From Blattamonas nauphoetae (taxonomy: Eukaryota; Preaxostyla; Oxymonadida): DNA of 64,000 nt. Below are positions 6,657 through 60,777 of this stretch, in pieces. Below the pieces are notes generated by a model that worked only from the letters and a program-made list of their open reading frames with translations, was not told the DNA's origin and did no database searches. Location of the stretch: contig JARBJD010000072.1 in the NCBI GenBank assembly GCA_033064195.1, positions 222,522-286,521 of the forward strand, written 5' to 3'. The translations under genes were made by a program, and so were the position numbers. The stretch's first letter is position 1. Every line of letters begins with the position of its first letter.

Positions 6657-6669
6657 CATCCCGAATCCT

Positions 6670-11951: not shown

Positions 11952-12718
11952 GGGGACGACTATATCTCATCAAGCATTCCATCTATATCTCATCAAGTTT
12001 TGATCAAAGGTTTACTCTTTCCCTTAATAATCTTTTTTCCTATTCTGAATTCACTCTTTTTCAGACTCAACACATCATTCTGATCTTCATCTCACTGTAA
12101 TTCTCTCCATTTTCGATATTATTGATGCGAAGATCCTGCTTCTGTGCTCTTGTGCCGTTCCTCCTCTTCATGCCACTCGACCTCGCTTTTGTTCGTACTC
12201 TCAGTTTAACCCCTTCTCTTTCCCTCCAGCCGCCACTCGAGACATGTCGTCAGACAGCTCGATCATCCCTCGGCTCGTCTCGCTCGTCGCGTGGTGCACG
12301 CTTTTCGTTGAAGTACCGTCCAAAATTGTGTCTTCCATCCTTCATCCTCTCCTCCACTCCCTCTCTGCCCTCACCCTCTTCAGCACTGCCAGTCTGCCCC
12401 CCTCTCGCTCATCCTCTTCAGATGGGAACAAGATCATGATTGTAAAGAGCGACGCCTACCAACTCTCGTCCGCCTGCTCTCTCGCTCACCCATCCTCTCG
12501 CTCCCTCCCCTCATCCCGCAGAACGCCCTCACCACTCTCTGGAACTGTGCCCGCAATGGTCTCCCTCCTCCCATCTTTCTCTCTCTCAGAAGAAATCAAA
12601 GACATCTCGCGCAGTGTCGGTGCCATCGACACCCTCCTCGATGCATCCATCCGCAGCGAAGTCGATCTCCAGACCATCGAGACCACTCTCGGCGCTCTGT
12701 TGAGCCTGACTGTGAACG

Positions 12719-12762
12719 GTGTGCCCTCCTTCTTCTGTCTCAACTGTCTGTCCTGTTCGCAG
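12719..12762 (+). other. predicted 44-nt intron in the element A cargo gene
   Basis: GTGTGCCC at the 5' end, pyrimidine-rich body and TTCGCAG at the 3' end. Removal joins GTG-AAC-G|CG-GAG (V-N-A-E) and links two armadillo repeats in register. Companion introns at 12559-12589 (31 nt) and 13014-13060 (47 nt) behave the same way. Confidence 0.65.
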
Positions 12763-13729
12763 CGGAGAACAAGAGCTACGTGAGGGAGCACAACGGGCTT
12801 CCCTTGCTCGTGTCCGGTCTGGCCCGTTTCCAAATTACTCCGCACACACCACAACACATCCCCGTCCTCCACACAGCTCTCACCACACCCCGAAACTGCT
12901 GTTCGAATGGTGTGCTCCTCGCGGCTCTCACCCCACACGCCCCTCCGTCTGTCACAAAGGAGGCTGTCCTGCTGGTGAAGAACCTCACGCTGGTGGATCA
13001 GAACAAGAAAGAGGTTGGTTTGGCATTCTGGCTCCATCATCCCTCCCTTTCCTCTCCCAGTCACTCCAGCCGAATCTCGACAGTTCTTCTCGCAAGTATC
13101 TGAATCATTTCGCTTGTTATGTCACTGTACGAACCTCTGTCAGAAAAGTGCGAGCACATTTCCAGGGGTAGGTCTAGACTCAGATCCGAAAAAGTCTAGA
13201 CGCAGATCTGCAGATCGGTTTAGGCGCAGATCTGCAGGTCTACACGCAGATCCGACATTTACTCCATATTTTCCACTATACACCTCATTTTATTCTTCCA
13301 ACACCTCAATATCGACATCATTTCCTGTTTTTTGGTTTAAGATCACCATTAGGTGTTTTTAACATTCAACGTTCAACGAGACTGACCGATCCTGGGTTGA
13401 TCAGGTCTAATCATCGACATAACGAGTAACTACACCTGATTGAATGTTCTCCAGCGAGTGTTTGTTCTCTCATTCATGTTACATGTTCATTTTTAGAATT
13501 ACCGTTCCCACAGCTGGATTGTCAGTTTCTTGTTCTGCACTCCGTCTACGACGATTTGTTCATTGATTCGCCTCTTATTCCATGTCAATTGATTGTAACA
13601 ACATATATGTTTGCTTTTTCGAGTTTTCTTCACTTTTTATTGATTTCTCATCGATATCTTCTCTCTCTCATTTCTCACGTTGACCAACTCTTCATTCTCA
13701 CTATTCTCTTCCTTCAAGGATCTTCAGTT

Positions 13730-14149
13730 TGGTATTTAGTCCCTCCTTGACAGTATCTCAGGACCAAAGAGTGTGATATTCGCTATTGATTGTGAACGCT
13801 CGTCCAACAATCGCCAAGTTGGGAACACTGTTAGGAAGGCCGTATCCGAAGATATGAAGAGAGTTTCAACGTATGTTCTTTGAACAGTAAATAGAGTTGA
13901 TTCTTCCTATTTTTCGCATTGTTCATTCTCTTAGTCAGTTACTGGAAGCCTTCGATCATTTTTTCATTCTTCGTTTCGTCCAGTTTTGCTGATGTGGCGT
14001 TTCTTGGGATTCAGAATATCCACACAGTGAGGAGGAGTCTGCGGACATTCATCAACACATTGGGGCATGCCGACCTGATTCTGAAAAAAGAAGAACCAAT
14101 GCAGGAAGAAGAGAAGAAAGAGGAGAAGAGAGTAGAAGGGAAAAGTTAG
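13730..14149 (+). pseudogene. gene fragment resembling a myotubularin phosphatase (captured in element B)
   Basis: One segment reads VIFAIDCERSSNNRQVGN and AVSEDMKRVST, then a GT-AG intron (~13869-13981, ending CGTCCAG), then FADVAFLGIQNIHTVRRSLR. The block 'vFL.I.NIH.mR.SL' preceded by a 'D.R...N' motif matches the region just before the catalytic domain of myotubularins as I remember it. The catalytic HCSDGWDR region is absent and the frame ends in a Lys/Glu-rich tail (EEEKKEEKRVEGK) that may be transposon-derived. It is a truncated fragment and cannot encode a phosphatase. Family assignment is moderate. Confidence 0.45.
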
Positions 14150-14640
14150 AAAGAAAGCAGAAAAAAAAAATATTACTCAATTGTAGCTCACAACTATAGT
14201 CCAATTGGCGAGTCTGCCTTCTTTCCGAACAGTCATTCCTTCTCACTCCATCCTTCTCCTCTTTCTCTCTAATTCCTCCCAGACTCATCCAATCCCTCCC
14301 TGCCTCCTTCTAGTCCCATCACATGGTACATCTTTCCACTCTGCCACCTCCCTCCTGTCTTCCGTTTTTCTCATCATAAACTGAAACAATGGATGAGACT
14401 AAACACCTTCACGTTGTTGTCTTGTTTCCATTCTTCTCACGCGTCACCAATCACCAACTAGATTTATCAGATTGCTTCAAATGACTGGTTCCTGCTTGAT
14501 CAACCCAGGATCGGTCAGTCTCGTTGAACGTTGAATGTTAAAAACACCTAATGGTGATCTTAAACCAAAAAACAGGAAATGATGTCGATATTGAGGTGTT
14601 GGAAGAATAAAATGAGGTGTATAGTGGAAAATATGGAGTA

Positions 14641-16087
14641 TACTGCCCGACACGACGACCTGATCCGGCTGTATTTTTTGTTTTTTGACAGAACAAGAGA
14701 GAGATGAGAGTTCCTTTTTCACTTACTTCAACTCCACGGGGTTAGACATCTCCTGAATTTTTTTGAAAGAACTGTAGTGAACAGTAGAAGAGAATGACGT
14801 GAAATACTAAAGTTGGGGGACATTCGTAGAACGACAGGACACGTGATTCGCCTCTGATTGCGCTCAACAATGGTTCCAAGATTGTCTCTGTCGAATCAAA
14901 GAAAGATTCAGAAAGAACGAAGGAAAGGCAAAGGAAGAAATGAAACAGCTCGCCATCTGAAAGTCTCTGTCAACACAGTCTCAAAGTACTCTCACACTCT
15001 CATCGTCACCGATCGACCGCGAGTTGTGAATCATAAACCCCAGTCACACCTCTATCCCAACAAAACACTCAAAATGTCCAGCTTGCGATCAAGAACAAAA
15101 CATACAGCTCCGCAAATCCAATTGAAAAGAGATCTCAAATTGCCAGGATCCGACCGTTCCTTCCAACGCTTCCTGAAAGCAAACAAAATAGGTCTCCACA
15201 AACATCATAAAGTTCCCCCCTTCCAACCACACCACATCAAAACAGATTCGACTTCGCCAAAGAGACTCTTTCAAAAGGCTATCTTCCTGACCTGTGTCTA
15301 TTTGACGACGAGAAAACTGTGAGAGGGAGAGGACCAGATAAGTATTACCGGTCATTAAGTGAGAAAGACACACAACGACCCGAATCAGAATCACGCGCTC
15401 ATCCAATCAAACTCAACATTTGGGGATGTGTTGGAGTTGGGTTCAAAAGCAATCTCTTCATCACAGAAGAGAACATCAACGGCAGAATCTACACAGATGC
15501 CCTCATCAACGGACTCACAAACGCTCAGATGGACCCTCCACTCGGGTCCTTCTGAGCGATAATGCGGGTTGGCACAAGAATAAAACGGAACTTCCCCGAA
15601 TTGAATTGGCGAATATCAGTCACAAATTCCTTCCACCTCTCTCTAGCGACTTGAACCCAATTGAACACGTCTGGGCAATGCTCACTACCAAATTATATGA
15701 GAATTTCGAAGTTTATGACACAATTGACTCACTGCGGAAAGCAATCGTGAGATGCTGGAAATCGATCCCACAAGAAAGTATCGACAACATCGTTCTCTCA
15801 TACGGTGACCGCCTCCTCGAGTGTTACTCTCATGAAGGAAAAATGACGAAATATTAGAGTGGTCGAGCTGGATGAAGTGGATCAGATGTCATGTCGCGAA
15901 CATCATGACCATCATTTTTTTTATTTTACAGTTTTCGCGTCACACAGAATTTTTTGGTTTCTACTTTATTGTCAAACTGTGTCTAACTCTCAAAATTAGT
16001 ATTCATAGAAAATTGAACCACATTGTGCCTCTATTCAGAAAAATACATCCGTTTTACAGCCGGATCAGGACGTCGTGTCGGGCAGTA
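14641..16087 (+). mobile_element. mariner element C inside the right TIR of element B
   Basis: Ends are TACTGCCCGACACGACG at 14641 and its inverted copy ending at 16087, each extending into CTGATCCGGCTGTA. A TA duplication flanks it (14639-14640 and 16088-16089). The sequence either side joins to recreate the uninterrupted TIR of B (GGAGTAAATGTCGG), which proves the insertion. Length is 1447 bp, usual for mariners. A second copy with the same ends lies at 32528-33982. Confidence 0.88.
14870..15857 (+). pseudogene. Tc1/mariner transposase, frameshifted
   Basis: ATG at 14870 starts MVPRLSLSNQRKIQK, followed by a basic helix-turn-helix region (NETARHLKVSVNTVSKY). The catalytic core is recognisable in three frames: LFDDEKTV (first Asp, ~15300), WGCVGVGF (~15425), LLSDNAGWHK (second Asp, ~15560) and SDLNPIEHVW (Glu, ~15660). 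The spacing between second Asp and Glu is 34 residues (DD34E). At least two frame changes, near 15300 and 15545, prevent a continuous product, so it is probably inactive unless these are read errors. Stop is TAG at 15855-15857. Confidence 0.8.
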
Positions 16088-16835
16088 TAAATGTCGGATC
16101 TGCGTGTAGACCTGCAGATCTGCGCCTAGACCGATCTGCAGATCTGCGTCTAGACTTTTCTAGATCTGAGCCTAGACTTACCCCATTTCCAGGAGCCCAC
16201 TGTCGATGAATTATTGGGCATCCTCGTCGGTGATGCAGATCGGTGGTGTGGTGGGACGTTCGGGCGGAATGACGTCGAGATTCTCTTTCGGAAAGCTCTC
16301 TCGGAACGATCCTGTTCGACTCTCGAGAGAGCTACTGATGTGATCTCTCTTTATCTGAACAAGGCCCTGATCTGCTCGTAGAGTGTGTTCATCTCCTCCA
16401 GAAGCATCTCGATTTGGTGATTAGTCAGGGAAACTTGGCTCACGAATGGGTGACTGTGGCGGTGAAAGAGGGTGGAGAAGGGGTGTGAAGGCCTGATTGT
16501 CCTGCGGGGACCAGAAAGGGGTGAAAAAAGGTTCCTCGTCCGTTATTCCTCCTCATCATCATCGCGAGACCATGTGAAATCCAAGTCTGGAGCAGGGGAA
16601 TTCAGAAGTCTTGGGTTGGATCAGCGTGTTCTACTAGAAACGACATATTCGAGTTCTTCGCATCAAAAATATCGAAAATGGAGAGAAATACACAGAGGTG
16701 ATGATAAGAATTGCGTGCTGAGTCCGGAAAAAAGGATGTCAGAAGAAGAAATAAAACTATTAAGGGAAAGAGTAAACCCTTGATCAAAACTTGATGAGAT
16801 ATAGATGGAATGCTTGATGAGATATAGTCGGCCCC

Positions 16836-18073
16836 TCCTTTGTCACACTCTGCACAGTATACATGGTGTTGAACTGCACTTCTGTTGGCAGACCTGCTTT
16901 CACTGTCCCTCTTCCTTTTGTCGATTCTGAGAATGTGATGAGAACGTTGTGTGAATCTGAGAGTGTGAGTGTGTACGTGTGCGGAGAGGGGAGGTTCTGC
17001 CCGATCACATCGATTTTGAACGAGTCCGACGAGCATTCAGTTGGAACAGAGAACGATGTGATCACAGGAGGATTTGGCACAGTAAACGAGATTCCAGAAT
17101 CGATCACAACATCAACCGAGTCGATTGTTGCTGATTGCACAGAATATGTCTTCCCAAACGAGAGATGATTGGTGTCCTCCCCCCACGCGGTTGAGAGCAT
17201 AGCTGTGCATTGTGTTGGCGAATTTCTTGTCAGCACACCTTCCACCAGTGTATCACTGCCCGTCTGTTTCACATGAATCGTTCCTGTTCCATCAGGGAGC
17301 AATGAAGCGAGGAATGAAACCGTTAGTTCATCTTTCTTTCCATTCAGCGAGCGAGAACTCAGTGATTTGATTCGGGGAGGTTCGGCTGGTGTTGTGAATG
17401 TGATTCTGTTGAGTGTGTGTACATCCGCTTCAACCCCTCCCTGTGGAAGCCACATTACTTTTTTGACTTCGTATTGCGTCCCCCATTCCAGTCTTCCTGA
17501 TGCATCAAGTGGATGAAGAGGCGCTTCTCCAACAAGAGTCGTCGTATCGGAGCGAGTCAGCGAGATGTTGAAATGGTTGCCTCCGTTTGGGATAAGCATC
17601 CAATAATTTCCTTCCTTCAGATTCATTCCATGAAGAACAATTGTTGTCGTGTTCCCATCTTTCAGTGATGAATGGGCTGAGTTGACTCTGAGCAATGAGA
17701 GGTAGTTTGAAGGCATCGATGATGCGCGGAGTGAATATTCTGCTTTTGGAAGAAGCCCTCGATCTCCCGAATACACAACTGCTGTTCCTGATGTCGATGT
17801 CTCGGAGTCTGTCCCAAAAGGAACATGAACAAGACGGGGCACATTCGACCCGTTCAGCAATATCCCCATCGTTCCCTTCACTCCTTCACTCGCTGTTGCT
17901 GTCACTGCTGCCCTCTCTCCACTGAACGACACACTCACGGTCACCGTTGGAGTGGACTCGAGTTGAGGAACGAGATCACTCATATCGTCCGCGCCACCAG
18001 CGACATACACATTGGGAGCTCCCGAAGTAGAGTCGCAGAACCTGACAGTTTTTTCAGTCGCAATTACACCATT
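16836..18073 (-). pseudogene. receptor gene, block 2: repeated beta-sandwich-like modules
   Basis: About 410 residues encode tandem modules of roughly 110 residues. Module boundaries recur as FTTPAEPPRIKS and FTVPNPPVITSF, preceded by Y.V.S/Y.VK strands, which looks like repeated immunoglobulin/IPT-type beta domains. The start joins block 1 across element I. At the low-coordinate end the frame reads YTVQSVTK and runs into the right TIR of element A; after the TSD copy the native continuation DDDHVLFNQ is found at 11951 and below. The last residues of the uninterrupted frame (16784-16835) therefore come from transposon sequence. I cannot assign a ligand. Confidence 0.72.
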
Positions 18074-19708
18074 CCGTGAGTGATCATCCATATGACAAGA
18101 TGATCACTCCCTTGACTTTTTAAGAGCCATTTTCTCCTTATATTTTCCCGAAAACCGCATAAATGATCAAAAATATGTTCTGTCGTGAGAAATTATCATT
18201 GGAAAGTGTGAATGGTTACAGCTTGTATTGGGGGGTCCAGCGTGCGGGAAACTGTGCCCGATTTACGAAACCAAAAATGGGGCTTTGATCAGTTTCCTCT
18301 TTCTCCTTCCTTGTGTCCTCTTCGTCTGGAATGCAATGTGATTCCATATCACTAAACGTTGCATCGTTCAATTCTACGGTCTGTTTGCCTCTTTTCTCTT
18401 TGATTCGGAATCCAGCGTTCTGGAAAGCCAACCGATTCTTCTTCTCATCGGTACAACTGGTTAATGTGAGAGCTGCTTCCCTAAATCGGTGTGTTTGTGT
18501 GGTCGCATTGTGTATCTCACTGTCTTTTCTTTCCATCTGTTTTAGAGCAGTGAATGTCAGCTGATCGCACGGCTGCGTCAAATGAGAGGACGCAGGCGGG
18601 AACGTAAAGAGAATGATGTTATTGACCGCGAGGTTTGTCTTAATGTCGCTTGTTTTATGGATTTCTAGGTTATCTGCGAGCAGGACAGCGGTATTCTCCA
18701 GCAAACCTTGTTGAATCCGAACAGATCGAACATGAGGAATGAAATGATCATTGATCCAACGATGATATTGATCGGCTTGAATCAGTCCACTGGAACTAAC
18801 GTTGACATTCGCATCAATATTGCCTTTTTGACTTCGGGGAGGACTTTTGGATCTAGTTTCTCCGCCTTGACTACTATCAGTGGTTTGACAGGCTTGCCTT
18901 GAAACGGAATACAAGCAAGCATTCCAGTCACCTTTTGCTGGAACTATCCTTAAACTTTGGGTTTGCAGTTTCTTTGTTCACGACAACTTTTTTGTTCCAA
19001 CCGATGGTGCCTTTCTCAGGAGGCTTTCATCACAATTAAACAGAAGGCGTGGATGGACGCCGACCACAGACTGTTGAAGGCGTGCTTTGTATTTTCGTAT
19101 CATTTTTTTCTGTAGGCGAGATCTTGAACTTTCCATTGGTTTTGCGACTGTTCGTTTTAACGTCTTTTTATGCCTGTTTAGGAAACGGCAAACCCATCCC
19201 TGGGTCACAACCATGCGGAATTTTGACTTGACCATCTTGATTATACCCACCCTGCCGATTGGTTTGTGACAGTTCGCAAGGGCACAAATTTCATGTACGA
19301 GCTCTTTTTCTTGTTCATCAGTCAGCTTTCGGTCAGTTGGCATCAACCCCAATCTTCGCTTGTTTCTTTGTGCCCGGAGATGCCAAAGGAATTGACGTGT
19401 TGAACGGAATACCCAAGCTACGTCAGCTATGAACGCTTTGCCCAGATAATACTGTGGCCAGTTGTCGAAGGCGAACAGCAAACAGTCAGAACGTGTTGAC
19501 GGCCGTTTCCGAGAAAGAAGATTGTACGCTCGTCCGCCCAGGTCTTTCCCAAACTTTTCTTTGCACCTCCCAAGTATATCCTTTCGGTTGAGTTCCCAAT
19601 AACTTTCGTTTGTTTTATTTTCCATAAAAATGGTTGAAAAAGAGAGAAAACGAAGTGCCGGAAAAGTGAAGTGGATGATCATTTTAACTGCAGGCTGATC
19701 ACCAACGG
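18074..19708 (-). mobile_element. pogo-like DNA transposon (element I) with 3-bp TSD
   Basis: Ends are CCGTGAGTGATCATCC (left) and GGCTGATCACCAACGG (right), imperfect inverted repeats containing TGATCA. ATT flanks both sides (18071-18073 and 19709-19711). Removing the element and one ATT joins the receptor frame as FGALN-GVIATEKT. Size 1635 bp is almost the same as element H (1628 bp), which has matching ends and transposase. Confidence 0.82.
18216..19625 (-). pseudogene. pogo/Tigger-type DDE transposase of element I, frameshifted
   Basis: ATG at 19625 (MENKTNESYWELNRKD). The N-terminal half has a helix-turn-helix with TQGWVCRFLNRHKK, typical of the CENP-B/Tc5 DNA-binding fold. Catalytic motifs follow: LLFNCDESL (first Asp), AVLLADNLEIHK (second Asp) and HLTQPCDQLTF (third Asp). 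Frame changes near 18990-18790 break the core between the first and second motifs. The C-terminus is an acidic tail (DEEDTRKEKEETD) and a final WTPQYKL shared with element H. The protein is related to centromere-protein-B-like transposases. It is inactive as written. Stop lies near 18216. Confidence 0.8.
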
Positions 19709-23229: not shown

Positions 23230-24316
23230 ATGGTTCCTCGTTTGTCCACAAAAAAAGTCTCCTTTTCCTATTGTATTCTCATTTGAACATTCCTAGACTC
23301 AAAAACGATGGAGACTTAGTCCCCAAGCCAAAAAAGAGATCCTTCTCAAGCGGAAGGCTGGCTTGTCGGTCGCTGCGATCGGAAGGCAAATCCACAGATC
23401 GGAGAGTACCATTCGGACCTTTCTCAAAGGTTGGCTAAAAAATCCAAGAAAGAAACGAAGCATACAGAGGACTTACACGCGATGCACAACGGTCCAGGAA
23501 GACGCCATGATACTCGCTGAAATTGACTGCAATCGCTTCAAATCAAAAAGAGATGTCAAAGAAAAACTTGCCAAGACACACCAGATTGTTGTTTCTGAAT
23601 CTACAATTGGGAGGAGAGGAAAGGAGAACGGGATCTCCCAACATCCCGTCAAGAGAAAGCCCCTGCTTCGATCTATCAACATTGAGAAGCGTTTGTCGTT
23701 TGCACGGGATCATGTGAAGTGGAGTCAACAAGATTGGAAGCGAGTCCTCTGGAGCGACGAAGCAATGGTTTGCCTAAAAGAACCGAAAGGGAAAGTGTAC
23801 GTATGGAGGAAAAAGGGGGAAGAATATGATCCGAAATGTGTACTACATACAGTCAAACATTCGGTCCACTTGATGGTTTGGGGTTGTGTTGGATGGGGTG
23901 GAGTTGGGAAGCTTGTCTTCATAAAAGGTAAGCTTGAACAAAAACAATACCTGAAAATAGTAAAAAAACACGTTCATGACCATGGAATTCAGCTCTGCGA
24001 ACAACCTTTCATATTCCAACAGGACAATGACCCGAAACACTCTTCGAAACTCGTCCAAAGTTGGATCGCGCGACAAACCTTTTCCACCATGATATGGCCA
24101 CCTCAAAGCCCCGACCTTTCACCAATCGAGAACGTTTGGCGCAATATGAAAGTAATACTGAACAAAAGAGATTGTCATACTGTTGACGATTTGAAGATTG
24201 CGATAAGAAGTGTGTGGAACAAGGATCTCTTGAGTTGCATCCAGTCTTCAATCTTATCCATGCCAACGAGGATTGCTGAAGTCCTGACCAACAATGGATC
24301 CTGGACACATTATTAA
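23230..24316 (+). CDS. Tc1-type transposase, apparently intact, with one intron
   Basis: The uninterrupted frame lacks an in-frame ATG near its start. Splicing a 40-nt intron (23257-23296, GTCTCC...TTCCTAG) links ATG 23230 (MVPRLSTKK) to TQKRWRLSPQAKKEILLKRK in phase 0. The product is ~348 aa, normal for the family. Order: paired helix-turn-helix (LSVAAIGRQIHRSESTIRTF), then VLWSDEAMV (first Asp), WGCVGWGG, FQQDNDPKHSSK (second Asp) and SPDLSPIENVW (Glu), spacing DD34E. MVPRLS is also the start of mariner C's transposase. No stop or shift interrupts it, so it may be active. I could not identify flanking TIRs. It lies within the satellite region. Confidence 0.82.
23257..23296 (+). other. predicted 40-nt intron in the Tc1 transposase gene
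   Basis: Begins GTCTCCTTTTCC and ends ACATTCCTAG. It contains an in-frame TGA when read through from ATG 23230, and removal gives one continuous 348-codon frame in phase 0. Confidence 0.7.
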
Positions 24317-24504: not shown

Positions 24505-25205
24505 ACTGTAAACGCTGTCATCGTATGTCTTGCTCTCTTTAACCTCTCTCTCTTTGTTGTTACTCTGATTTAGAAAACAATCCAAGGACGATACAATGGT
24601 AAAATGAGAAGGATCAAACCACCAGCTCTGTTGGGGCAATGAGCTGTGATCTGCCGTCGCTGTGTGCCTTACTCTCTTTTATCCTTTTTCTCTTTGTTGT
24701 TTCTCTTCTTGAGAGTAAAAACGATGATAAATAGAATGGAGAAATGAGAAGGATCGAACCACCTGTCCTGATTGGACAATGGAACGATCAAGAGCCTTTA
24801 TGGCATACTTCTCTCTTATTTTACATTCCTCTTTTTTGCTTTTTCTCATTTTTTTGACTCAATGTTAGATAGATCGAATGTGACATGACTATGATCAAAC
24901 TGTCCGGATTGATCAAGAAATCTGATGCGAAGTGTTGTCACAGTTTGTCTCCCTATCATTTTACCTCTCTCTTTTTCGTTTTATCAATGATTCAGGACTT
25001 CATTCACGATAGATACTTTGTGAAATGAGAATGAACTCACAGTCTGTCCTGATCGGACAGTGAAGGGCTGAACTGTTCACACGGTATGTTTCTCCCTCTT
25101 GTTACCTCTCTCCTTTTTGTTTTTATCTATTTTTAAGACATAGTAAGCAATATTCGAGATGTGAAGTGAGATGGATCAAACGGGCTGTTCTGATCGGATA
25201 TCGAA
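24505..25205. repeat. ~140-bp satellite array, left part
   Basis: About five diverged units follow each other. Each has a CGTATGT/CATACTT-like start, a pyrimidine tract (CTCTCTTT..ACCTCTCTC), TTTTTGTT, a dimorphic middle ending AATGAGAAGGATCAAACCAC and a GATTGGACAAT/GATCGGACAGT end. On the minus strand each unit contains GGTTYGATCC, resembling a pol III B box. The array is cut at 25205 by element E and continues at 34767, with GATATCGAA duplicated. Confidence 0.7.
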
Positions 25206-25387
25206 GGCTGCCTCAATTTGAAGTTGGTTTTCTCGAGTGCAGTTGGTTTTCTGAACTGCAGTTGGTTTTCTGAACGACCGTTGGTTTTCTGAACGACCGT
25301 TGGAAATCTGAACGACCGTTGGAAATCTGCAAAAAAAGTTGGTTTTTTTAAACCTTATCGGTGTGGATGTTTGATCAAAAACAAATT

Positions 25388-25459
25388 GTACAAATGGACG
25401 AGTTGGTAGATACAAAGACTTCCACTGTTGGGTCCCAGGTTCGAATCCCGGGATCTCCA
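25388..25459 (+). other. tRNA-like sequence in left TIR of element E
   Basis: TGGACGAGTTGGTAGATACA matches the pol III A box and D-loop layout and GGTTCGAATCC is a perfect B box. The T arm is near-complete (one mismatch) and an anticodon-like loop TTCCACT would give CCA. The 7-nt acceptor strands (GTACAAA and GATCTCC) do not pair and the D and anticodon stems are weak. It is therefore a tRNA-derived sequence, not a functional tRNA. It could act as an internal pol III promoter. Confidence 0.6.
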
Positions 25460-25702
25460 ACTTTTTTCTTAACAGGATTTTTCTGACGTGATCATTCATA
25501 TTTTTGTGAAATTATTGCAGTATTCATGATCGGATGAGTAATGTTCGACAATTGGATTGAATTGGCCTTTTTTTGAATCGGATCATCCCACTTTCTCTTT
25601 AACTCTCCTCTCTCTGGTGTATACCGCCCTTTCAACAGGATATATTCTGTACCAACAATCACAAAAATGAATCATGAGATGATACAATGAAACAGAGCAA
25701 GA

Positions 25703-27008
25703 ATGGAGTTGTGCAAATCGACGCGATTATCTTTCACCGAAACAGGTGCCATTTCAGTAATCCCTGTCCCAAAACCAACAGAGTCCCAAGGATATTCCTC
25801 CATTTCAGCCAACTGCAATCTCACACCGCCTCCCCTTCCTTCTCAACCATACGTTAACCGTCAGATCCACGACTGGCATCGAGAGAACGCAACACCAGCA
25901 AACAAAGCGGAGACAAGGCAACTGGCTAACCACGTGTGCACCTCACTTTGTCTTCCAGCAGGGGCATATCAAGAAGAGACCGAAGGGAATGAATCCGATC
26001 TTTTCCACTCCCTCTTCTCGTACAGACCCAGCTCCCTTCCCACACAGAATCTCTTTTAATCGCATCTTTCCCAACCGGACACGAGAGATTTGCCGCAACC
26101 ATTCTTCACAGTCAACCTGTCTCGAATCACCAACATCTCTGATGCATCTCCAGTCTTTCTCTCACTTGTGACACTTGTGAAAGAAGGAGCCGTCTTTGGA
26201 AAGTCTGAAACCCGAAAGGCCTGCCGATTGCTGGACAAACTTGCACCTGGGCCCAAGAAACTGTTCACTTGCGGCGAGATTCTGTTTGACCTCGTCCCAT
26301 CACCGAATCGAACCTGTCGACTGTTCGCAGAAGCAATGGTCTCCCTTTTATCCTGTAGCAATGAAACAATATCATTTTCAGCACTTTCATTTCTGGATAC
26401 AACACTAGAAATGGCCGACACTCGTGACCGACTCAAACTTGTGGAAGCCGAATTCTTCTGACTCCTCCGCTTTCATTCTGCGAGCAAGAGAATCATCTGA
26501 AGCCTCAACACATAATTCTTCTCGTGAGAATCATTGTTCGCTGTCTCTCTCAACTCGGCGACTCCATCTATTTTAGGGACTTTTCTGTGATTCCAGAACA
26601 ACTTCAGTTCTTCCACATCATCTTTTCGGATCTCCTTGTTCCACTTGAGGGTTTTCTGAGATTCATCTGTCGTCACTACTCCATATTCGACATCCACAAT
26701 CCGACATCCAGCATTATGACTCTGCTTCTGGAGCCAATGCGATGCGCTCTTTTCTACGAAGAAATTCACTCTTTCATGCTGCCCCCCCTCTCTCTGTCGC
26801 CATCATAAATTGCTTCATTCACTTCACCACCGTTGAAATGATCGATCAAGGCCTGTCGTACCTGAGATGGACTCTGTTGATGTGGAAGGACGCAAAACCC
26901 GAAGTGCAAAGGAGAAGCAAGGACATCATGGCCAGCTTGCGAGAGGAAGGTCTTGATGACTCCTTGGAGTTGGAAACAACATTCTCCTTTTTGCACACGA
27001 AACCATAG
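25703..27008 (+). pseudogene. armadillo/HEAT-like helical protein gene, frameshifted (cargo of E)
   Basis: Three + strand fragments in different frames carry one protein-like pattern. The middle piece (26090-26461) reads SLVTLVKEGAVFGKSETRKAC and FAEAMVSLLSCSNETISFSA, a helical repeat pattern I associate with an expanded oxymonad family. The last (26740-27008) reads CFIHFTTVEMIDQGLSYLRW and KDIMASLREEGLDDSLEL, a plausible C-terminus. Frame changes occur near 26060, 26470 and 26800. Introns explain none of them convincingly, so it is probably degraded. Role unknown beyond a helical scaffold. Confidence 0.5.
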
Positions 27009-29480: not shown

Positions 29481-29489
29481 AAGTTGTCT

Positions 29490-30100
29490 CGGAGGTTGTT
29501 GAGCAGGATGTGTATGTGCAGGCGGTGACTGTCACATCGAAAGATGGGCCTGAAGCTGACATTTTTGACAGACTTCCTTGACATCGAGTGTGAGATGAGG
29601 AGTGATGAGTAGTCGTAGGCGGAGATGAAAATCCATTCTCCAGATCGTCCGCTCGAACACTGACAGATTTTATCGAATTTTGAGTCGATGACAAGACTTG
29701 AAGGTGGGAATTTGGATGGACATGAAATCGAGATCCCTCTGCCGTCATGTGTGGAGGATCACGTGGAGAACGAGCATTCTCTGATGATGGGAAGATGGTC
29801 AGAGAGGCAGTGGGGGAGATCAGAGATCCGACAGACGCGGATGACAGGGTCGATGGAAGAACGACGATCAGTTTGGAGAATGCCAGATCATCCACACACA
29901 TTGACGTTCGTGGCAGCAAAGAGGTCAGATATGAGGCTGTGAGTCCGCTGGGGTCCAGGAACAGCGCCGCTCCATTCGCGGTAGCTGAACTGTCAGAAAA
30001 TATTGTCGAGGTGATGGAGAGTTGTCCGCCTGTGACTGACCGAGAGAGCTCCTCCATTTGCAGCTGAACACGGCGCGAAGATCGAACTGGCAATGGTTTC
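29490..30100 (-). pseudogene. surface-protein-like fragment and adjoining coding-like sequence
   Basis: On the minus strand Ser/Thr-rich repeats (GGQLSITSTIFSDSSATANG, SLISPTASLTIFPSSEN) resemble the ectodomain turns of the receptor gene. A second frame (~29620-29440) reads FRPIFRCDSHRLHIHILLN and could be an exon of the phosphatase-like gene. The boundary between the two is unclear. Confidence 0.35.
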
Positions 30101-33982: not shown

Positions 33983-33985
33983 TAG

Positions 33986-51835: not shown

Positions 51836-52060
51836 AGAAGAGTGTGGGCAGAATCCTGTTGAATGGAGGTGGGAGAAGGGAATAAACAGGTCGATTGGAG
51901 GAGGGAGGAGGGCAGAATCCTGTTGAATGGAAGTGGGAGAAGGGAATAAACAGGTCGATTGGAGGAGGGAGGAGGGCAGAATCCTGTTGAATGGAAGTGG
52001 GAGAAGGGAATAAACAGGTCGATTGGAGGAGGGAGGAGGGCAGAATCCTGTTGAATGGAG
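51836..52060. repeat. 64-bp tandem repeat (about 3.5 copies), relative of the 32-bp array
   Basis: GCAGAATCCTGTTGAATGG recurs at 51849, 51913, 51977 and 52041, an exact 64-bp period, i.e. twice 32. Internal motifs GTGGGAGAAGGG and CGATTGGAGGAGGGAGGAGG parallel GTGGGAAGAGGG and GTGGATTGGGGG of the main array, so this is a diverged higher-order edge. Confidence 0.75.
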
Positions 52061-52773
52061 GTGGGAAGAGGGCAATGCGAGGTGGATTGGGGGTGGGAAG
52101 AGGGCAATGTGAGGTGGATTGGGGGTGGGAAGAGGGCAATGCGAGGTGGATTGGGGGTGGGAAGAGGGCAATGTGAGGTGGATTGGGGGTGGGAAGAGGG
52201 CAATGCGAGGTGGATTGGGGGTGGGAAGAGGGCAATGCGAGGTGGATTGGGGGTGGGAAGAGGGCAATGTGAGGTGGATTGGGGGTGGGAAGAGGGCAAT
52301 GTGAGGTGGATTGGGGGTGGGAAGAGGGCAATGCGAGGTGGATTGGGGGTGGGAAGAGGGCAATGTGAGGTGGATTGGGGGTGGGAAGAGGGCAATGTGA
52401 GGTGGATTGGGGGTGGGAAGAGGGCAATGCGAGGTGGATTGGGGGTGGGAAGAGGGCAATGTGAGGTGGATTGGGGGTGGGAAGAGGGCAATGTGAGGTG
52501 GATTGGGGGTGGGAAGAGGGCAATGTGAGGTGGATTGGGGGTGGGAAGAGGGCAATGCGAGGTGGATTGGGGGTGGGAAGAGGGCAATGCGAGGTGGATT
52601 GGGGGTGGGAAGAGGGCAATGCGAGGTGGATTGGGGGTGGGAAGAGGGCAATGTGAGGTGGATTGGGGGTGGGAAGAGGGCAATGCGAGGTGGATTGGGG
52701 GTGGGAAGAGGGCAATGCGAGGTGGATTGGGGGTGGGAAGAGGGCAATGTGAGGTGGATTGGGGGTGGGAAGA
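52061..52773. repeat. 32-bp G-rich minisatellite, block 1 (~22 units)
   Basis: Unit GAGGTGGATTGGGGGTGGGA plus AGAGGGCAATGY. Units are nearly identical; the only common variant is C/T at the last base (CG or TG before AGG). Since 32 is not a multiple of three, all frames cycle through the same peptide and appear open on both strands. The long frames seen here are artefacts of the repeat. Block 1 is cut by element D after GTGGGAAGA. Confidence 0.95.
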
Positions 52774-53454
52774 GGTAGCGTCTAGAGGCAGACCCCATTT
52801 TAGCTAGGTGCAGACCCCTGATATCTAGAGGCAGACCCCTTATATCTAGAGGCAGACCCCAGATTGCTAGAGGCAGACCCCATTCTAGCTTGGTGCAGAC
52901 CCCTCCTGTTTTCCGTTATTATTCACAAATTTTCCACTGTTTTTTACAAATTTTGATGAAAAATCACTTCTTAAGCCGTTTGCTCATGGTGTTTTCCAAT
53001 AAGATCCTAATTCACCGAAGTCTTCATCAAAACACAAATTCATGGGTTGATCGTCCAAAAACCACTTTTCTTCCTTCCCATCGGAGAACACGGCTTGAAG
53101 GTAGTTGTACATGGAGAAAGTTGCTTGTTTCTATGAACTTCAGAAATTTCGTGGCGACGTCGTGAAGATTATTGTATGACGTGACATCGATCTGGAGTGA
53201 GGATCCATATTCTCTGTGAATTGCCTATGTGCCCGACTTAGCTTCTTTGGTTCATGTCAAATAACAATGGAGCATCGAGGTTGACTCTTTCTGCTTTGTT
53301 GCAACCTCTGTTTATTCCTCCAACCCCTCCTGAAAGTAATTCGATCCAATCCAGGCCATTTTCTCAAAAAAGACAATCTTTTGCAGACACCTGGCAATTC
53401 TTTGGGTATTGGACCACTCCACTTTAGTCGTTCGATAATTCTGAAGGGAACCCT

Positions 53455-56400
53455 TTGGATCTACGCTCAGCTTCAACTAGTGGAAGAAAGAGACGAGTAT
53501 CGACAGGGTCACCTGGAACAGAGACTCTATTCGATGGAGGCACATTATCGCAAGTTGGAACGCCAACACTGCCATTCGATTATCGAGATGTGGAATCAGA
53601 CAAGTACCAGACTGAAACTCGCTTCTGTCCTCAAGGAAAAGAACTATTCGAAGAAGAATTTACCTTTCAAATTCAAAACTTGCGGAATATGGATGATAAA
53701 CTCGATGATGATAGCTTCTTTGACCAATTGAAGGCTCTGAATCTGAAACCGATCGAAAAATCCCGACCTGACACCCAGTCGGCTTTTGATGAGTCTCGTC
53801 GCGATGTTGTCAAATTCAACATGACTATCAAAGCAACGTACCATCAGAACTTTGTGTTTCACAATGCTAACCTGTGCCAAATCGCCCACCACCAACCAAA
53901 CCTTCTCGACCACCTCCCATCGCTGCGGATGCATACTCAATATCAACCCGTCCGCTCAACACTCCTTCTAAATCTCCAGTAGGCGGACATATTTCAAGCA
54001 AGACTAAGTATAGCACAGCTCCAGTTCTTCCAACATCCAACAATCAGAATACGGTTGTTGCGCATCATCAATCGGATACGCATCGTGTCCTCACTCCATT
54101 TCTCCACAGTCCTCACAGTCCTTCCCTATCAGCCACTCACATCCGGTTTCTATACCCACAAAGCATCGACTTCACATCTCTCAAAACAGATCTCCAGGCT
54201 TCTGATTTGATCCCAGTGATCCCAGTCGGATCTGATCCCACTAAATACCTACAATACCATTTCGTTTCTTTCATTTCAAAAAAGTCTTCTTATATATGAT
54301 ATTTGAATGGAAAAAAAAGTAAAAAGGAAAATGGTCACTTCATAGATCATGAAAATGCAAACTTTGGGTGCTGCTGTTTCAGTTTGTTCTACAACAATAA
54401 TTATTAAAACAAGTCGATAATGCGTTATTATGTCTTCTTTGATGGTTTTTTCTCACTGACTAAAGTCAATGAAGGGAATACATCGAAAAAAGAAGTGTTG
54501 GTGATTGTGATCGTGCGTGTTTTTGGGAAATAAGAGCTGTCTGAAATATTGAAGAGCATTATGTGAAAACAAGAAGTGAATTGAACATGATTAATGAAGT
54601 GATAATGAGAAAATCTCAAAGGAAAAGAGTTGAAATTTGATCTCAGTCCAAATTTAGGCACTGACATCAATTGATCCCAGTTTTACCTATTTTGATGGGA
54701 CTACTCAGATGCCTGCAGATCTCTCCACGAGAACTATTCTCATCGAAACAGAAATCAGAGATACAGACAATCTTTCTTCACCTGGTCTTCCTCTCATTTT
54801 CAACAATAAGGGCATTGGAAGCAATGAAATGCTGACAGTTCACAAGAGCTGTGTAAGGTACCACGAACAGGGCCACACCTTCGGTGACGAGATCAAAGTG
54901 AAACTCCCCCTTTCATACTTCCCCTCCGAAGCCCACTGCAACCCAAACACACTCCACCCCCTCTTCAAGTTCTACCATCTGGAATGCAAAAACGTGAAGG
55001 ATGGGGAGCCAGTGACTCTCCAGCTCATCGGCCATTGTGTGTACCCCCACAACCTCTTTTCGTCCCACATCGACCTGTCCCAGAAGATGCCTTCGCTGTG
55101 CTTCCAGGAGGGACTGGAACACGGATATCTCGCCCACCAGCCCACGAGGGGGCTGCGTCAGATTGATCTCAGTCAGAGCTTGTTCACCACTCGGAACGGC
55201 ACTTATTTCGCTCCCGACGCGATCTGGAAAGATGGAGTGTCAGATGCGAAGACACTCGCCCTGTCCACACTGACCGACCTCATCTCAATCATCCCGTCAG
55301 CCAAGCCCACCCCCAACTCCTCGTCAACTCCTGGCTCGCCATACACTCCCTCTTCCCCAACAACCAAGCACACGAGATGGTCCGCTTCTTCCCAGCAGTG
55401 GCCGACACCCTGCTTCTCCCGATTTGTGAGCACAGTGGAGAAAGTGTTCCAAATTGAAGTCACTGAGCTGTCCAACGCGGTGGAGTCCGATCAAGTTTGA
55501 CTCGTCCCTCCAAATCGCAACCTCGCCGTCGTTCACCAACAACTCCGAACTTACTCCTGTCCTTCACCAATACATCGACCACTTCTTCGCCAATCCCGTC
55601 ATGAGCGGTGGAAGGGCTGCTACTCTCAACAGTCAAAACGCTCATCCACAAGTCGCTCCTCGTCCACCTCCGCTCTCTCGACACTCCTTTCACCTCCCCA
55701 CAACTTGATGTCATCTCGCCAGAAGAAGGCAAAGACACGAAATCACCCACTCTCCTCTCCCTCGTCTCCTCCCACAACCACTCGCTCATTCCAAACGTTC
55801 TGTACGAATCCCTCTGCCGCCTCCTCCCGTTTCATCGCCATGCTCCTCTGCAACATCGTCTCCCTCGCTGCTCAACGGTCGTCAGCCTGTGACAAGACGA
55901 AGCAGTCACAGTCCAACCTCTCTTTCCTTCCCGCCACTCTCCCTCGCAAAGAGAGACACTCCATCGCCGAGTCTATGTTGGCGTTGCGACTGAACATGTT
56001 CTCGAAGGAGAAATGGAAGCCCCACAAATTTCTCCAGCTGATTCAGCGGATCCTCTTCGACTTATTGGACTCCGAGATGCACAAGCTCGGGTTTTCTTTC
56101 ATCCCGCTGTCACCCCTCCGACAATCGATCCGACTCAACATGTCTGTTGTTGCAGCAGTCAACACGGGTCTCAGGTCCATCTCCGAGATCTCCGAGGGGT
56201 GTACGGACCAAACACAACCACATCTTTCGCTTCTCCCTTCGCATCAAAATTGGTCATCAACCCATTTGCTCCCGATGCTGGCAAAGTTGTTCATCCCCAC
56301 CTCCACGGGCAAATGCTCAAGCGACTGAAACACCAGACTGAAGAAACGAAAAGGAGAAGCCCGGAATCGCTGAAAGAGGAGAAACTGGCGACGAAGAAAG

Positions 56401-58043
56401 AAGAACGAAAGACACAGACGAAGACCAATCAATCCGAAACGCTAAGTCGTTCATCAAGCAACTCAAGTTCCTGACGAAGCCAATAATCCCAAAGTCTACA
56501 AAACACCAGGCAGATGGCTATCTGCAACATTTTGGAGCACTTGTCGTTTCGGATTGTGCACGACTGCAATGAAATCTGGACACATCATCGGAACATAAAA
56601 GTCACTTCTCGTCGCCCTCTGGTGCCAACACTCCAGTTTCAATGTCCACAGTCGGGAAGACCCACGAACAATCGCAAGACAAGACACTCAACTCGATCGG
56701 AAAGACACTGATCAGGAATCTCAGAACTGTCCTGTTTCAGGAAGACTGTGCGCTTCTGAACTCGACTCTCTGTGTTGTATCTTATTTGTCCTCTCTTTCC
56801 TGTTCTCTCTTTCTCAGGCTTCTCCTTTCTGCGAAGTCGCCCACAACTTCGCTGGTCAAATGACCAAACTCCTCAAGCGGTTCGAAGCAATCAACAATCT
56901 GCCAGCTGAGTCTCAGTTCCAGCGGGCTCGCTACCTCAGCATCATGATCAGCGAGTGTGTTCTCCCTCTTTGTTCATCTCATTTTTTTCATCTCATTGCT
57001 CTCCTTTCCAGGTACGATGCCAATCCCCTCCTCCAAGTCATGTGCTACAAGCGTCTTCGCAAGCACCGGGAGAAGACATCGCTCCGAGACACTGCCGCCA
57101 CTGTCCAACTCTGAAGCATCATGGTAATCTTCGTGATTGTGACTGAAATGATCCGCAGTGGCTTTCTGGACACGCCAATCAACACTCGCGAGCGGAACAA
57201 CCTTCTCAACGACTGCACCACGTGCGGATGGAGGCAGCTCATCCTCGACATCATCCCCACTGCCACGTTCCTGACGAAGGAGGTGTGTTCCTTTCTTCCT
57301 GCTTCATTCTTTCTCAGCGTCTGGCCGACATCTTCACTCGCGACGTCATTTCTGTGATCATCTCAGCCAAGTCGAAGCCGAGTGTCCCGCTCTTCTCCAT
57401 CCCCTCGCTCATCAGCTCGCTCATCGTCTCAGCCACCCTCTTCTCCAACGGGCCATTCTACGAACTCTCCACTCGCTTGTATCAGCTCGTTCTTCGCCTC
57501 TGCGCGTCCATCAACGACACTCGGACCATGTCAACAGTGTAAGCGTCCCTCGTAACCACAACAAAAGACAACCTTTCTGTTTACGGCCCAGACAGGGTCA
57601 GGAACCAATACTGGCTGGTTGGACTGCATGGGAAGGGCTTCAGGCAGCTGGACAAGGAGTACATGTGGAAGACCGTCAAATTCGAAGCGCTGGATCGGAT
57701 GATGAAGCTGCTCCGAGTCGAATACGCCAACCTTGTCTCCCTCGCGAACAAGGAGCGTCCCATCCACGCCTATATCGCCCGTCGGAAGGAGATCCAGAAA
57801 AGCCTGGCCTCCAAATCGCAGCCGGCGAAGGAAGACGAGTTGTTCCACCAGCCTCCACTGACTGTGTTCCCCGAAAACGAAATGACCATGTTGGTGCATG
57901 GACGCTGGATCGGTTTGTTTGGGATTGTTGTGAAAAGGCTGACTGTGCATTTTCAGCGTACGATCTGCTCTTCGAAGACAACATCCCACAGTACCCAACT
58001 GGGGTCTGCAGTGCAAAGATTGACGCAAGACTCGCCGATTTAG
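53455..58043 (+). pseudogene. DOCK-family (zizimin-like) Rho/Rac guanine nucleotide exchange factor, incomplete (cargo of D)
   Basis: The N-terminal part (53455-53860) is charged (FFDQLKALNLKPIEKSRPD). FLYPQSIDFTSLKTDL (~54150) and SCVRYHEQGHTFGDEIKVKL...LFKFYHLECKNV (54840-55000) match the DHR-1/C2-like domain of DOCK proteins. A helical middle part follows (LVNSWLAIHSLFPNNQAHE, ~55310). QYWLVGLHGKGFRQLDKEYM (~57605) matches the DHR-2 motif with the pattern YFRVGFYG.KF.DLD. Introns at 56774-56817, 56955-57011, 57283-57317, 57539-57595 and 57894-57956 can be phased. The last DHR-2 lobe, which carries the nucleotide sensor, is not recognisable and the frame runs into a surface protein. Shifts near 53860, 55310 and 57115 suggest decay. 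Confidence 0.62.
57283..57317 (+). other. predicted 35-nt intron in the DOCK-like gene
   Basis: GTGTGTTCC...TTTCTCAG; removal joins FLTKE to RLADIFTRDV in phase 0. A second clear example in the same gene, 57539-57595 (57 nt), joins RTMSTV to VRNQYWLVG in phase 2. Confidence 0.7.
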
Positions 58044-58199
58044 GAATCGACTACTACCCCGCCCCAGCAGCTCTGCCGTCAGTGGCTGCGACAGAATACG
58101 GGTTCTTTTTGAGGACAGCTCCCCAAACAGGCAGTGGAACGAAAGGATTCACCAGTCGTCTCTCTTCGTTCATTCAGACCGTGGAATTTCCAATCGTCG

Positions 58200-60496
58200 T
58201 GTCTTGGATGACCACTGCGATTCAATCAACCACATCTCCGGCCCAGACAGTTTCTGGATCAGCCCAGCTCGTGTGGCATTTCTTTACGTTGGATTGCTCA
58301 GGAGCTGACAATGAAGAATGTGACCCTCAGACAGTTCTCGATCAGTGGAAAGAGCTTCATTGCTCTGAGCGGGCCTGCTCAGCCTCATTGACGAGCCTGA
58401 CAGTGCAAGGCATCACTCAAAAAGGAGAGTCTGGAAATGGAGCCTTTGCTCGCCTCTTAGACGCTTCCTCCATTTCTGTCTCCTCGTCGACCTTCGCTGG
58501 GGTGACAAGTGTGGGCGACGGAGGAGTGTTCTTCTCGACATCGTCTGGCTCAATCTCACTCTCGTCCTGCTCGTTCACATCGTGCAGCTGTGGCAGTGGT
58601 CACCAAGGAAAGTGGGTGTTTGTTAAAGCCCACTCTTTGGGAACGTTGCTGGATCCAGACAATTGGGCATCAACGACCGCCTCTCTCGCATCACATGCGA
58701 ACGATTCGCTGCTGATGGGGAGGATTTGGCCGAAGCCGAAGGGAGCACGTTCAGATCGATCTCTGCTCTTCTATCTGATTGACTTCAAAGCTGCCACGAT
58801 CACGACTGGAGATGGGAAAGACGCAAAGGATGTGGACAGTCGGGATTTCACTGCTCTTCGATTGATGAGGCGTGGTCTCATCTGAAAGATTCCCTCGCAT
58901 TCTCGTCATCTCCACGCAGTCGCAATTGAGCCGTTCGCTGGAAGTGAGTGAAACCACAGTCGAACTGAAACCGAAGTCAACCACTGGCACGATCAGAATT
59001 GGAAAGACCGGATCATTTGTTGTCTCGGTCCACTCGCTCAGCCCGACCAGTCTCTCGCTTGTTCCTGCTGTCTCTTCAGAAGCACGCGATTCGTCGTTGT
59101 TCTCGGTTGTTGGAGGATCGCTGGCCGTCAAATCGTGCTCGTTCGTTGATTTCTCTCTCGTCGCACGCTCTGATCCATCACACTGGATCGACCCTGAAGA
59201 TGGATGATGTTGCATTTGAATCGATTGTTCGTTCGGATGGTTCGGGAAGTGTGGTTGTGTCCGAAATGGTGTCTGGAATGAAGTTGGACTTGAATGATGT
59301 TCGTCTGATTGATGTCTCGTCGTCGAATGGAAAGTTTGATGGGATTTTGTGCAATTTGGATCGAAAAGTTCTCCTCGTGCCTCCCCTGAATTCAACTTGA
59401 CGAATCTTCACTTTTCGGCGACCTCGTCTGCATCTCTCTCCACTTCAAACACTGACGAGACCGCGCCGTGTTTCTTGTGGATTGAAGGAGCGAATCTGGG
59501 TTCGATCTTAACTGAAGGCGATGCTAGGTTTTAAGGATCAACTCCCGACGATGTTCTGGATTGTTGGTCTCGACGCAGTTGGGATCTCATCGCCGCACTG
59601 TGGTTTCTTCGCTGTTTGGTGTCCGACGCTTCGGAATGCAATCGCTCGTCTTGCTTCAGCTGAGAGCACAACAGTTCAAGTGCAGACGTCCATCGTTCTC
59701 TCGGAATCAGTCTCATTTTCGTTGATGAAAACGTTGTGTGGTGTGAATTCTAACTCGACTGTGACAATCGAATCAGGTTGCTCGTTTGCTGTTGCTGAAT
59801 CATTGCCTGATGTGGTCGTCACAATAACTTCACTCTGCTTCCTTCTCCCACAGTCCATCACATCTGATAAATTATTCGCCGTCACTGGAGGGTCACTCCA
59901 AGTCACGTCCTGCTCCTTCTCTCCTAAAGGCGAATATCCTTTCTCGTTCCAACTGATTTGTGGTTCAGCTCACCAAGTGACACTGGAATCGACGAATGTC
60001 TCGTCAGCGTCTCTCTCGTCTGTTGCTCTCTCTGATTTCGACGAGCTGTTCAGTTTCGATGTCGAATTGCCGCTTCTCGTCGATTGTTGTGTTGGAGGGT
60101 CATGGAAGTGTTCTGCGTGCTGATGCGAGCAACACAGCTCGTGTTTCAGTGTTGAACACAGTTTTGTCGGGATGTTCGAGCTCGGGTGTCGGGAGTGCGA
60201 TTCTTTTGTCGAAACTGAATGGGGGATCGTTCTCATCGACCGATTGGGATGGGATGTTCAATCTGTCGAGCACAATGGGTGAAGTTTTGGTGTTTGATGC
60301 GTCTCTCCGAGCATCAAAGTCCAACTCATCTTCGCTGCTGTACGAGTTCCATCCTCACGTTGCTGGAAACCCAATTTAATGTCGACTGGATTCTGGGACC
60401 ACTCGGATTGTGGACTGGAGGAACTCCCCTGTGCGTCATTGGCTCATGCGTTGTCGTCCGTTGCTTCTGTGGCTGAGATGTGTTGTTCAAAATGGA
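58200..60496 (+). pseudogene. repetitive surface-protein gene fragment (cargo of D)
   Basis: Several + strand frames encode Ser/Thr-rich repeat turns: ISVSSSTFAGVTSVGDGG, SISLSSCSFTSCSCGSG and KWVFVKAHSLGTLLDPDNW (58470-58680), LAVKSCSFVDFSLVARSD (59120), LQVTSCSFSPKGEYPF (59890) and SVSMSNCRFSSIVV (60055). The final part reads DHSDCGLEELPCASLAHAL (~60400), the same Cys-rich module start as CG..SRPC in receptor block 3. The reading runs straight into the right TIR (from 60496) without a stop of its own, so the gene is truncated by the element end. Frame shifts at ~58880, 59210, 59400, 59530 and 60120. No membrane helix is left. Confidence 0.6.
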
Positions 60497-60777
60497 TTGA
60501 TCAACCCATGAATTTGTGTTTTGGTGAAGACTTCGGTGAATTAGGATCTTATTGGAAAACACCATGAGCAAACGGCTTAAGAAGTGATTTTTCATCAAAA
60601 TTTGTAAAAAACAGTGGAAAATTTGTGAATAATAACGGAAAACAGGAGGGGTCTGCACCAAGCTAGAATGGGGTCTGCCTCTAGCAATCTGGGGTCTGCG
60701 CCTAGTCAAAGGGGGTCTGTGTCTAGCAATCGGGGGTCTGCCTCTAGCTAAAATGGGGTCTGCCTCTAGACGCTACC

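Follow-up and report, generated by a model that had tools for sequence, protein, structure and literature searches.

Pack-MULEs of rice and other plants are nonautonomous Mutator-like elements (MULEs) that hold fragments of host genes between terminal inverted repeats (TIRs), as described in the accessible text of PMC6431247, PMC6446971, and PMC8277862. In the accessible parts of the first two sources they are presented as plant elements, and among those of Jiang et al. 2004 none exceeded 7 kb and most measured 1 to 2 kb (PMC6431247, accessible part). Among animals, 100 reference genomes held no Pack-MULE, Ssk-FB4 of Drosophila aside, according to the available text of PMC8277862. Here, we scrutinized a stretch of 64,000 nucleotides from the oxymonad protist Blattamonas nauphoetae (contig JARBJD010000072.1; C690:222522-286521; hereafter, the window), which holds four elements termed A, B, D, and E, and searched the whole genome (88,311,006 bases, 837 contigs) for their relatives. 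We conclude, with a probability of roughly 0.88, that all four are nonautonomous MULEs, and that D and E are Pack-MULE-like and carry broken cargo derived from the host.

In the window sequence, each of A, B, D, and E was bounded by a pair of TIRs and an exact flanking 9-bp target duplication (Table 1), as the initial annotation had proposed. That annotation had counted four independent elements, which did not hold for B, since it sits inside A. All eight element ends began with GG, in agreement with the earlier observation. Excluding gap columns, the TIRs were 87% identical in A, 94% in B (outer 95 bp), 98% in E, and 95% in D. Taking ~100 bp or more as long, TIRs spanned 182 columns in A, 279 in D, and 440 in E, next to the 95-bp outer part in B, where a 238-bp query matched both ends of other B copies.

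DNA searches with the element ends revealed that all four families are multicopy in their own genome; with 40 candidates scored per search, copy numbers are lower bounds. The pattern built on the E tips gave at least 102 matches, and a reversed control pattern gave none. A census of 38 relatives chosen by eye from the match lists (10 A, 5 B, 13 E, and 10 D pairs) left 37 resolved, the E copy C94 being excluded as its right tip was not found, and 33 of these carried perfect 9-bp duplications (A, 9 of 10; B, 5 of 5; E, 10 of 12; D, 9 of 10). Pairs outside the census included C357, C629, C87, C187, and C247 for A, C105 and C458 for E, and C376, C745, C579, C184, and C125 for D, among others; C578 and C15 share one insertion site. 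The 38 distinct 9-mers from the window, the relatives, and two MULE elements had a GC content of 47% and no strong consensus. TIR pairs elsewhere without 9-bp duplications had been named as a finding that would undermine the proposed family, and the census shows the opposite for most relatives.

Empty sites unlike the predicted preinsertion sequence had been named as a second such finding. Within this genome, the predictions for B, A, and D were all matched. The B site was empty in all four near-identical A copies, which matched the joined sequence over 133 bases without gaps at 99.2 to 100%; the more distant A copies L006 to L008 gave a two-piece match with a 4-base gap and are less informative. 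Joining the flanks of A minus one 9-mer yielded a 1036-aa open frame, an outcome with a chance of 1 in 3, as frame-keeping shifts are also open. Searched against the genome, the 340-base join had 25 matches other than itself, every one of which crossed the junction, at 66 to 79% identity and four of them over 340 of 340 bases, so the insertion of A hit one of a family of host genes. D lies in a satellite of 32-bp units in which GTGGGAAGA abounds, and its 9-mer alone is therefore weak proof; joining its flanks minus one 9-mer kept the satellite phase at 32 of 32, and joins shifted by 1 to 12 bases reached at most 0.50. A frame check of the E preinsertion site was uninformative. The satellite itself occupies 51861-52775, 60778-61657, and 63286-64000, and is broken by D and by a stretch of ~1.6 kb (61658-63285).

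As noted initially, no element in the window has a recognizable MULE transposase: the Pfam MULE profile (PF10551) had no match inside the window, and the sole match listed on this contig, C690:168922, falls outside it. Across the genome, the profile search returned 100 matches, 96 of them above the curated cut-off. A MULE-type transposase gene with the same TIRs, which the initial annotation had proposed to look for, was found for D. MULE matches lie between D TIRs (90 to 94% identity) at C55:95840-110929, C90:338206-361092, and C76:52117-64883, each copy with a perfect 9-bp duplication; the distance between the match and one end of the element is 1442, 1442, and 1419 bases, respectively. The C90 frame, the only one read among the three, encodes 672 aa; it has a ZSWIM-type RNase H-like match in addition to a MULE match of 74.5 bits. 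MULE matches and E or D pairs were compared by eye from the match lists.

We further read 20 of the 100 MULE loci, 6.9 to 9.9 kb each. Inverted repeats spanned the match in five, with 9-bp duplications in two, L022 and L030. At L030, a 637-aa MULE frame lies between A-like tips and the duplication CAGATTGTG; both tips read GGGGACGACTATA (13 bases), the same as the left end of A, and the TIRs diverge further in. At L022, the MULE frame lies between TIRs 66 to 69% similar to those of D, with the duplication CCTTCGAGC. In L034 and L036, a single A-like TIR (84% over 180 bp) precedes the MULE match by 0.9 kb, and their second ends were not found. Judged by similarity only, a MULE transposase is thereby predicted in elements with A ends. 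L034 (C358) and L036 (C823) have only 1192 bp in common, at 99.7% identity, from the A-like TIR tip to the MULE match. L017, the only one of these loci with a B-type TIR, was rejected as a transposase partner of B, since that TIR is oriented away from the match. The 9-bp duplications and the TIRs common to transposase-bearing elements, directly for D and by similarity for A, uphold the Mutator-like type suggested earlier; support for it is good in D, in A it is likely, and in B and E its basis is purely structural.

The cargo of D matches C128:10832-17596. This segment contains an open frame of 2016 codons, with a DOCK-C2 match (76.6 bits), and DNA downstream of the frame. The D block has its counterpart in 6.8 kb of C128, covering most of the 2016-codon gene, and because it extends into DNA beyond the DOCK gene, capture would have taken place at the DNA level. 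The DOCK copy in D is ~2.8 kb shorter than the C128 block. Many deletions interrupt it, its reading frame is shifted by several indels (one of 145 bases), and position 53425 carries an in-frame stop where the resident relative is open. A TGA at 55498 was rejected as an in-frame stop, being the product of a frame shift. The final ~60 bases of the insertion in this copy (Table 1) are part of a short stretch matching many places in the genome. Further downstream, residues 1-208 of the open reading frame (ORF) at 57275-58882 are C128-like (58 to 62%) and are fused to a piece of another gene family, making the D cargo chimeric. The first ~2 kb of D cargo is also present in C55 and C76 at 98 to 99% identity, which would fit descent of D, C55, and C76 from a cargo-bearing ancestor and loss of the transposase region in the D line.

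E carries a piece related to a resident gene on C27, with an in-frame stop at 26459, where the C27 gene is open. A stop in the matched stretch of this plus-strand cargo was found in at least 20 E copies, including that of the window. Further frames among the matches listed for the plus-strand cargo, most of ~340 to 430 codons, were related at 29 to 45%. No E gene model had a Pfam match. ORF 29389-30099 of E recurs in other multicopy repeats and was rejected as a conserved element gene, its ratio of nonsynonymous to synonymous divergence (dN/dS) being 0.91 in comparison with the C65 repeat (192 codons). A stretch of the E minus strand also occurs at 72 to 87% amino acid identity in C65, C102, C232, C498, C312, C200, C52, and other multicopy repeats, which are possibly additional element families.

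Between element copies, the DOCK cargo of D has evolved in a manner consistent with neutrality: D and the transposase-bearing C55 differed by a dS of 0.019 and a dN of 0.017, a ratio of 0.9 (416 codons, ungapped blocks), the small basis of 22 substitutions tempering this test. A value of 0.82 for the same pair was dropped, as the alignment was forced in C55 DNA not matching D, and ungapped blocks were used instead. These results bear on the initial proposal that such elements are vehicles for whole, working host genes and spread gene families. The size of the D block, equal to 6.8 kb of C128 and most of a gene, and the presence of cargo in many copies are what such vehicles would leave. We nevertheless regard them as very improbable given the in-frame stops, the frame-shifting 145-base deletion, and the many other deletions in D, the ratios near 0.9 both for D and for the E ORF, and the stops in at least 20 E copies; the reading was already disfavored. 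All four elements had been described as enclosing spliced host-type genes. With in-frame stops and indels in the cargo of D and E, and the resident DOCK gene being one open frame, spliced whole genes were not borne out, and for A and B there was no evidence of such genes; introns may exist elsewhere in the D and E cargo. Movement of whole multi-exon genes is not supported, the cargo being truncated, interrupted by stops and frameshifts, and neutral between the two D-type elements compared, and the analysis offered no support for a spread of working surface or scaffold gene families. The earlier observation was largely right: the ends and duplications stood, as did the Mutator-like interpretation and host-DNA capture in D and E, and host genes in A and B and the movement of working genes lacked support.

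In comparison with C128, D had a dS of 0.61, a dN of 0.073, and a dN/dS of 0.12, and the ratio for C55 and C128 was 0.11. C128 was rejected as a direct donor, a ratio of 0.12 at this dS not fitting a single neutral branch since capture. Decay since capture from C128 would give a far higher ratio, so the DOCK gene had probably already diverged from C128 while working. Some other working gene, diverged from C128, would thus have served as the donor, and capture probably occurred shortly before the D and C55 copies split. In the protein search, nothing outside elements was closer to the D cargo than C128, at 85% amino acid identity, and the next DOCK matches stood at ~41%. The simplest reading is that the donor was a paralogous block since lost or absent from the assembly. 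E and C27 gave the same pattern in weaker form (dS 0.18, dN/dS 0.26; 279 codons).

The same numbers invite another source for the DOCK gene. The cargo of D, and possibly of E, may have been built in the genome of another flagellate and have arrived by horizontal transfer with a foreign DOCK gene, as a dS of 0.61 at a dN/dS of 0.12 from the resident gene, next to a dS of just 0.02 between D and C55, would suggest, together with a protein search in which no donor nearer than C128 appeared outside elements, the drop to ~41% in the next DOCK matches, and synteny with C128 that extends beyond the gene. If true, a Mutator element would have ferried a gene piece of a foreign lineage between protists. 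We consider this unlikely, as the same values are explained by a paralogous block of this genome that was lost or not assembled, and the GC content at third codon positions is alike in the cargo (0.48) and C128 (0.50). As for the C128 and C27 loci being transposons themselves, the matches listed include no D TIR on the former and no E tip on the latter, the flanks of both having been read in part.

The ORF in A gave an Armadillo match of 17.5 bits, below the Pfam cut-off of 20.6 bits. B was rejected as a gene carrier, as its extra DNA is a nested Tc1/mariner-type element of ~1.45 kb, termed F (DDE_3, 5e-11; HTH_38, 7e-5), which splits the right TIR of B. A relative of F, 72 to 78% identical, lies within E.

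Several observations weigh against the interpretation of all four elements as MULEs with captured DNA in D and E. Four of the 37 resolved relatives (C254, C408a, C408b, and C113a) lacked a perfect 9-mer. The right flank of C254 is the same as that of C46, and C113a (C113:256-7650) shares its left flank with C113b (C113:24557-32036) and its right flank with C605 (C605:8045-15520); C254 and C113a look like recombinants between elements or assembly joins. The E copies C408a and C408b lie on one contig (C408:2331-10422 and C408:17169-25248), the flanks of the former agreeing at 7 of 9 bases and those of the latter not matching. Such flanks common to other copies in C113a and C254, and the synteny of D cargo with C128, might be taken as signs of segmental duplications or gene-family repeats with chance inverted repeats. 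This explanation deserves hardly any credence, being refuted by a census in which 33 of 37 resolved relatives had perfect 9-mers at nearly all different sites, and being opposed by three kinds of empty-site evidence.

On the side of the transposase, 15 of the 20 MULE loci read had no inverted repeat spanning the match, and no transposase partner for B was found among these 20 of 100 loci. Among the 22 exact-tip E pairs listed, the window copy included, no PF10551 match was found, and membership of E consequently rests on structure. With no MULE match in these pairs, and with tips (GGCTGCC and GGTCATC) that have only GG in common with those of the other elements, E could belong to another, unrecognized transposon type with 9-bp duplications, leaving A, B, and D as MULEs. 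This is improbable in view of the equal duplication length (10 of 12 resolved), the long TIRs, the tandem subterminal motifs, and the similar cargo; MULE TIR length is, moreover, highly variable within and between groups (PMC6446971, accessible part).

Regarding the cargo, similarity of C55 to D ended at window position 55379 (3.3 kb of C55 read), C90 had no DOCK match in the protein search, and C55 and C76 were absent among the matches listed for the second D ORF (81 of 626 candidates scored), so D is no simple deletion form of any of them. Synonymous divergence makes C128 and C27 improbable as direct donors, and capture from the true source was not seen. In the genome search (expectation value 1e-8), relatives of the A ORF were confined to A elements. 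For B, ORF 13430-13747, the only one tested outside element F, had no Pfam match, and no paralogue search was made.

Taking all four elements as nonautonomous MULEs, a MULE transposase supplied by longer relatives would act in trans, excising the copies at their TIRs and inserting them with a 9-bp duplication. A transposase of the C90/C55 type would presumably move these copies, and for B and E action in trans as a whole is presumptive. The ancestors of D and E would have acquired genomic DNA with host genes before amplification: in D, a DOCK gene and neighboring DNA, to which part of a second gene family is fused, and in E, part of one large family of genes. The D line would have lost its transposase region after the cargo-bearing ancestor it has in common with transposase-bearing relatives. 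The cargo is broken, and in D it is passenger DNA without detectable selection. B is nested in A, and Tc1/mariner elements are nested in B and E.

Table 1. Elements, repeats, and cargo delimited in the window (positions count from its first base).
Feature	Position	Strand	Remarks
Left 9-bp target duplication of A (TCCTTTGTC)	11943-11951; right copy 16836-16844		Joined flanks match uninterrupted host paralogues
Element A, with B nested inside	11952-16835		Closest relatives ~1.86 kb; perfect 9-bp duplications in 9/10 relatives tested
A TIRs	Left 11952-12133; right 16655-16835		87% identical
ORF in A	12312-13100	+	Armadillo match below threshold; matches confined to A elements (expectation value 1e-8)
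Left 9-bp target duplication of B (CATTTCCAG)	13157-13165; right copy 16184-16192		Site empty in 4/4 near-identical A copies
Element B, nested in A	13166-16183		4/5 other B pairs ~1.53-1.56 kb; perfect 9-bp duplications in 5/5 relatives tested
Tc1/mariner-type element F inside B right TIR	14641-16087 (approximate boundaries)	+	35-bp TIR, TA flanks
Host open frame broken by A	10103-18103	-	1036 aa with A and one 9-mer removed; 25 uninterrupted relatives of junction region
Left 9-bp target duplication of E (GATATCGAA)	25197-25205; right copy 34767-34775		
Element E	25206-34766		Other copies mostly ~8 kb; perfect duplications in 10/12 resolved relatives
E TIRs	Left 25206-25645; right 34347-34766		19-bp subterminal repeats in left TIR
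Host-gene piece in E	26060-26904	+	92.6% over 847 columns to C27:64965-65811; two 1-bp indels, one stop
Relative of Tc1/mariner element F in E	32526-33984	-	
Left 9-bp target duplication of D (GTGGGAAGA)	52765-52773; right copy 60778-60786		
Element D in 32-bp satellite	52774-60777		Perfect duplications in 9/10 relatives tested
D TIRs	Left 52774-53052; right 60499-60777		279 bp, 95% identical
Host-derived block in D: broken DOCK gene and adjoining DNA	53375-57889	+	14 colinear blocks to C128:10832-17596
~520-bp insertion in D DOCK copy	54195-54717		Absent from C128 and MULE-bearing C55
Second D cargo piece	57905-58843	+	Residues 211-523 of ORF 57275-58882; 29-61% amino acid identity to large long-frame gene family

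Elsewhere in the window, inverted-repeat pairs were found at 35131-35223 and 40861-40953 (tips CAGAATGACCC...) and at 5606-5668 and 9922-9984 (tips CAAACGAG...). The intervals 35131-40953 and 5606-9984 were rejected as further elements, there being no flanking repeat of at least 7 bp near their ends. A 339-aa open frame at 23297-24313 with DDE_3 and HTH_Tnp_Tc3_2 matches is an apparently intact Tc1/mariner-type transposase gene, and a 543-aa frame at 3231-4859 gave a partial tyrosine/serine-threonine kinase match (31.4 bits).

In the open-access literature, we found no report of a gene-capturing MULE in a metamonad, which is weak evidence of absence; words beginning with "transpos" do not occur in the article on the B. 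nauphoetae assembly (PMC10703272), nor do "mutator" and "mule" in PMC8767320. Some predicted genes of this genome may be broken copies within transposons, and annotation should be read with this in mind. Among described systems, as far as the accessible text of the sources reports, the protist EMULE-Ei1 of Entamoeba invadens resembles the present elements in its 187-bp TIRs and 9-bp duplication and differs in being 2,882 bp long with one transposase ORF, with no captured gene mentioned in that text (PMC2725143). The TvMULEs of Trichomonas vaginalis are likewise metamonad MULEs, for which typical long TIRs were not identified and putative duplications measure 10 to 14 bp (PMC2725143, accessible part), a combination that none of these elements displays. 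Ssk-FB4 of Drosophila, a Pack-MULE in its authors' term, is similarly gene-carrying, with long TIRs and 9- to 10-bp duplications; unlike the broken and, in D, neutral cargo described here, it belongs to an animal and to a coding family with signatures of positive selection (PMC8277862, accessible part). The closest likeness is to the Pack-MULEs of rice and other plants, which are often multicopy, have distinct duplications, and are moved in trans, according to the accessible text of the sources named at the outset. In common with these, D and E, the only two of the four for which this was found, hold internal sequence derived from a host gene with a locus of its own elsewhere in the genome, and the copies in the window are without transposase, as judged from PF10551. 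Unlike the plant elements as there described, they reside in a protist, D measures 8.0 kb and E copies ~8 kb, and the D cargo corresponds to a 6.8-kb genomic block and is partly common to transposase-bearing copies. Large captured blocks in a protist, a resident gene recognizably related to them, part of the cargo also present in copies with a transposase, and empty sites that are clean together suggest that gene capture by Mutator elements is not confined to plants and offer a system in which its onset can be studied.

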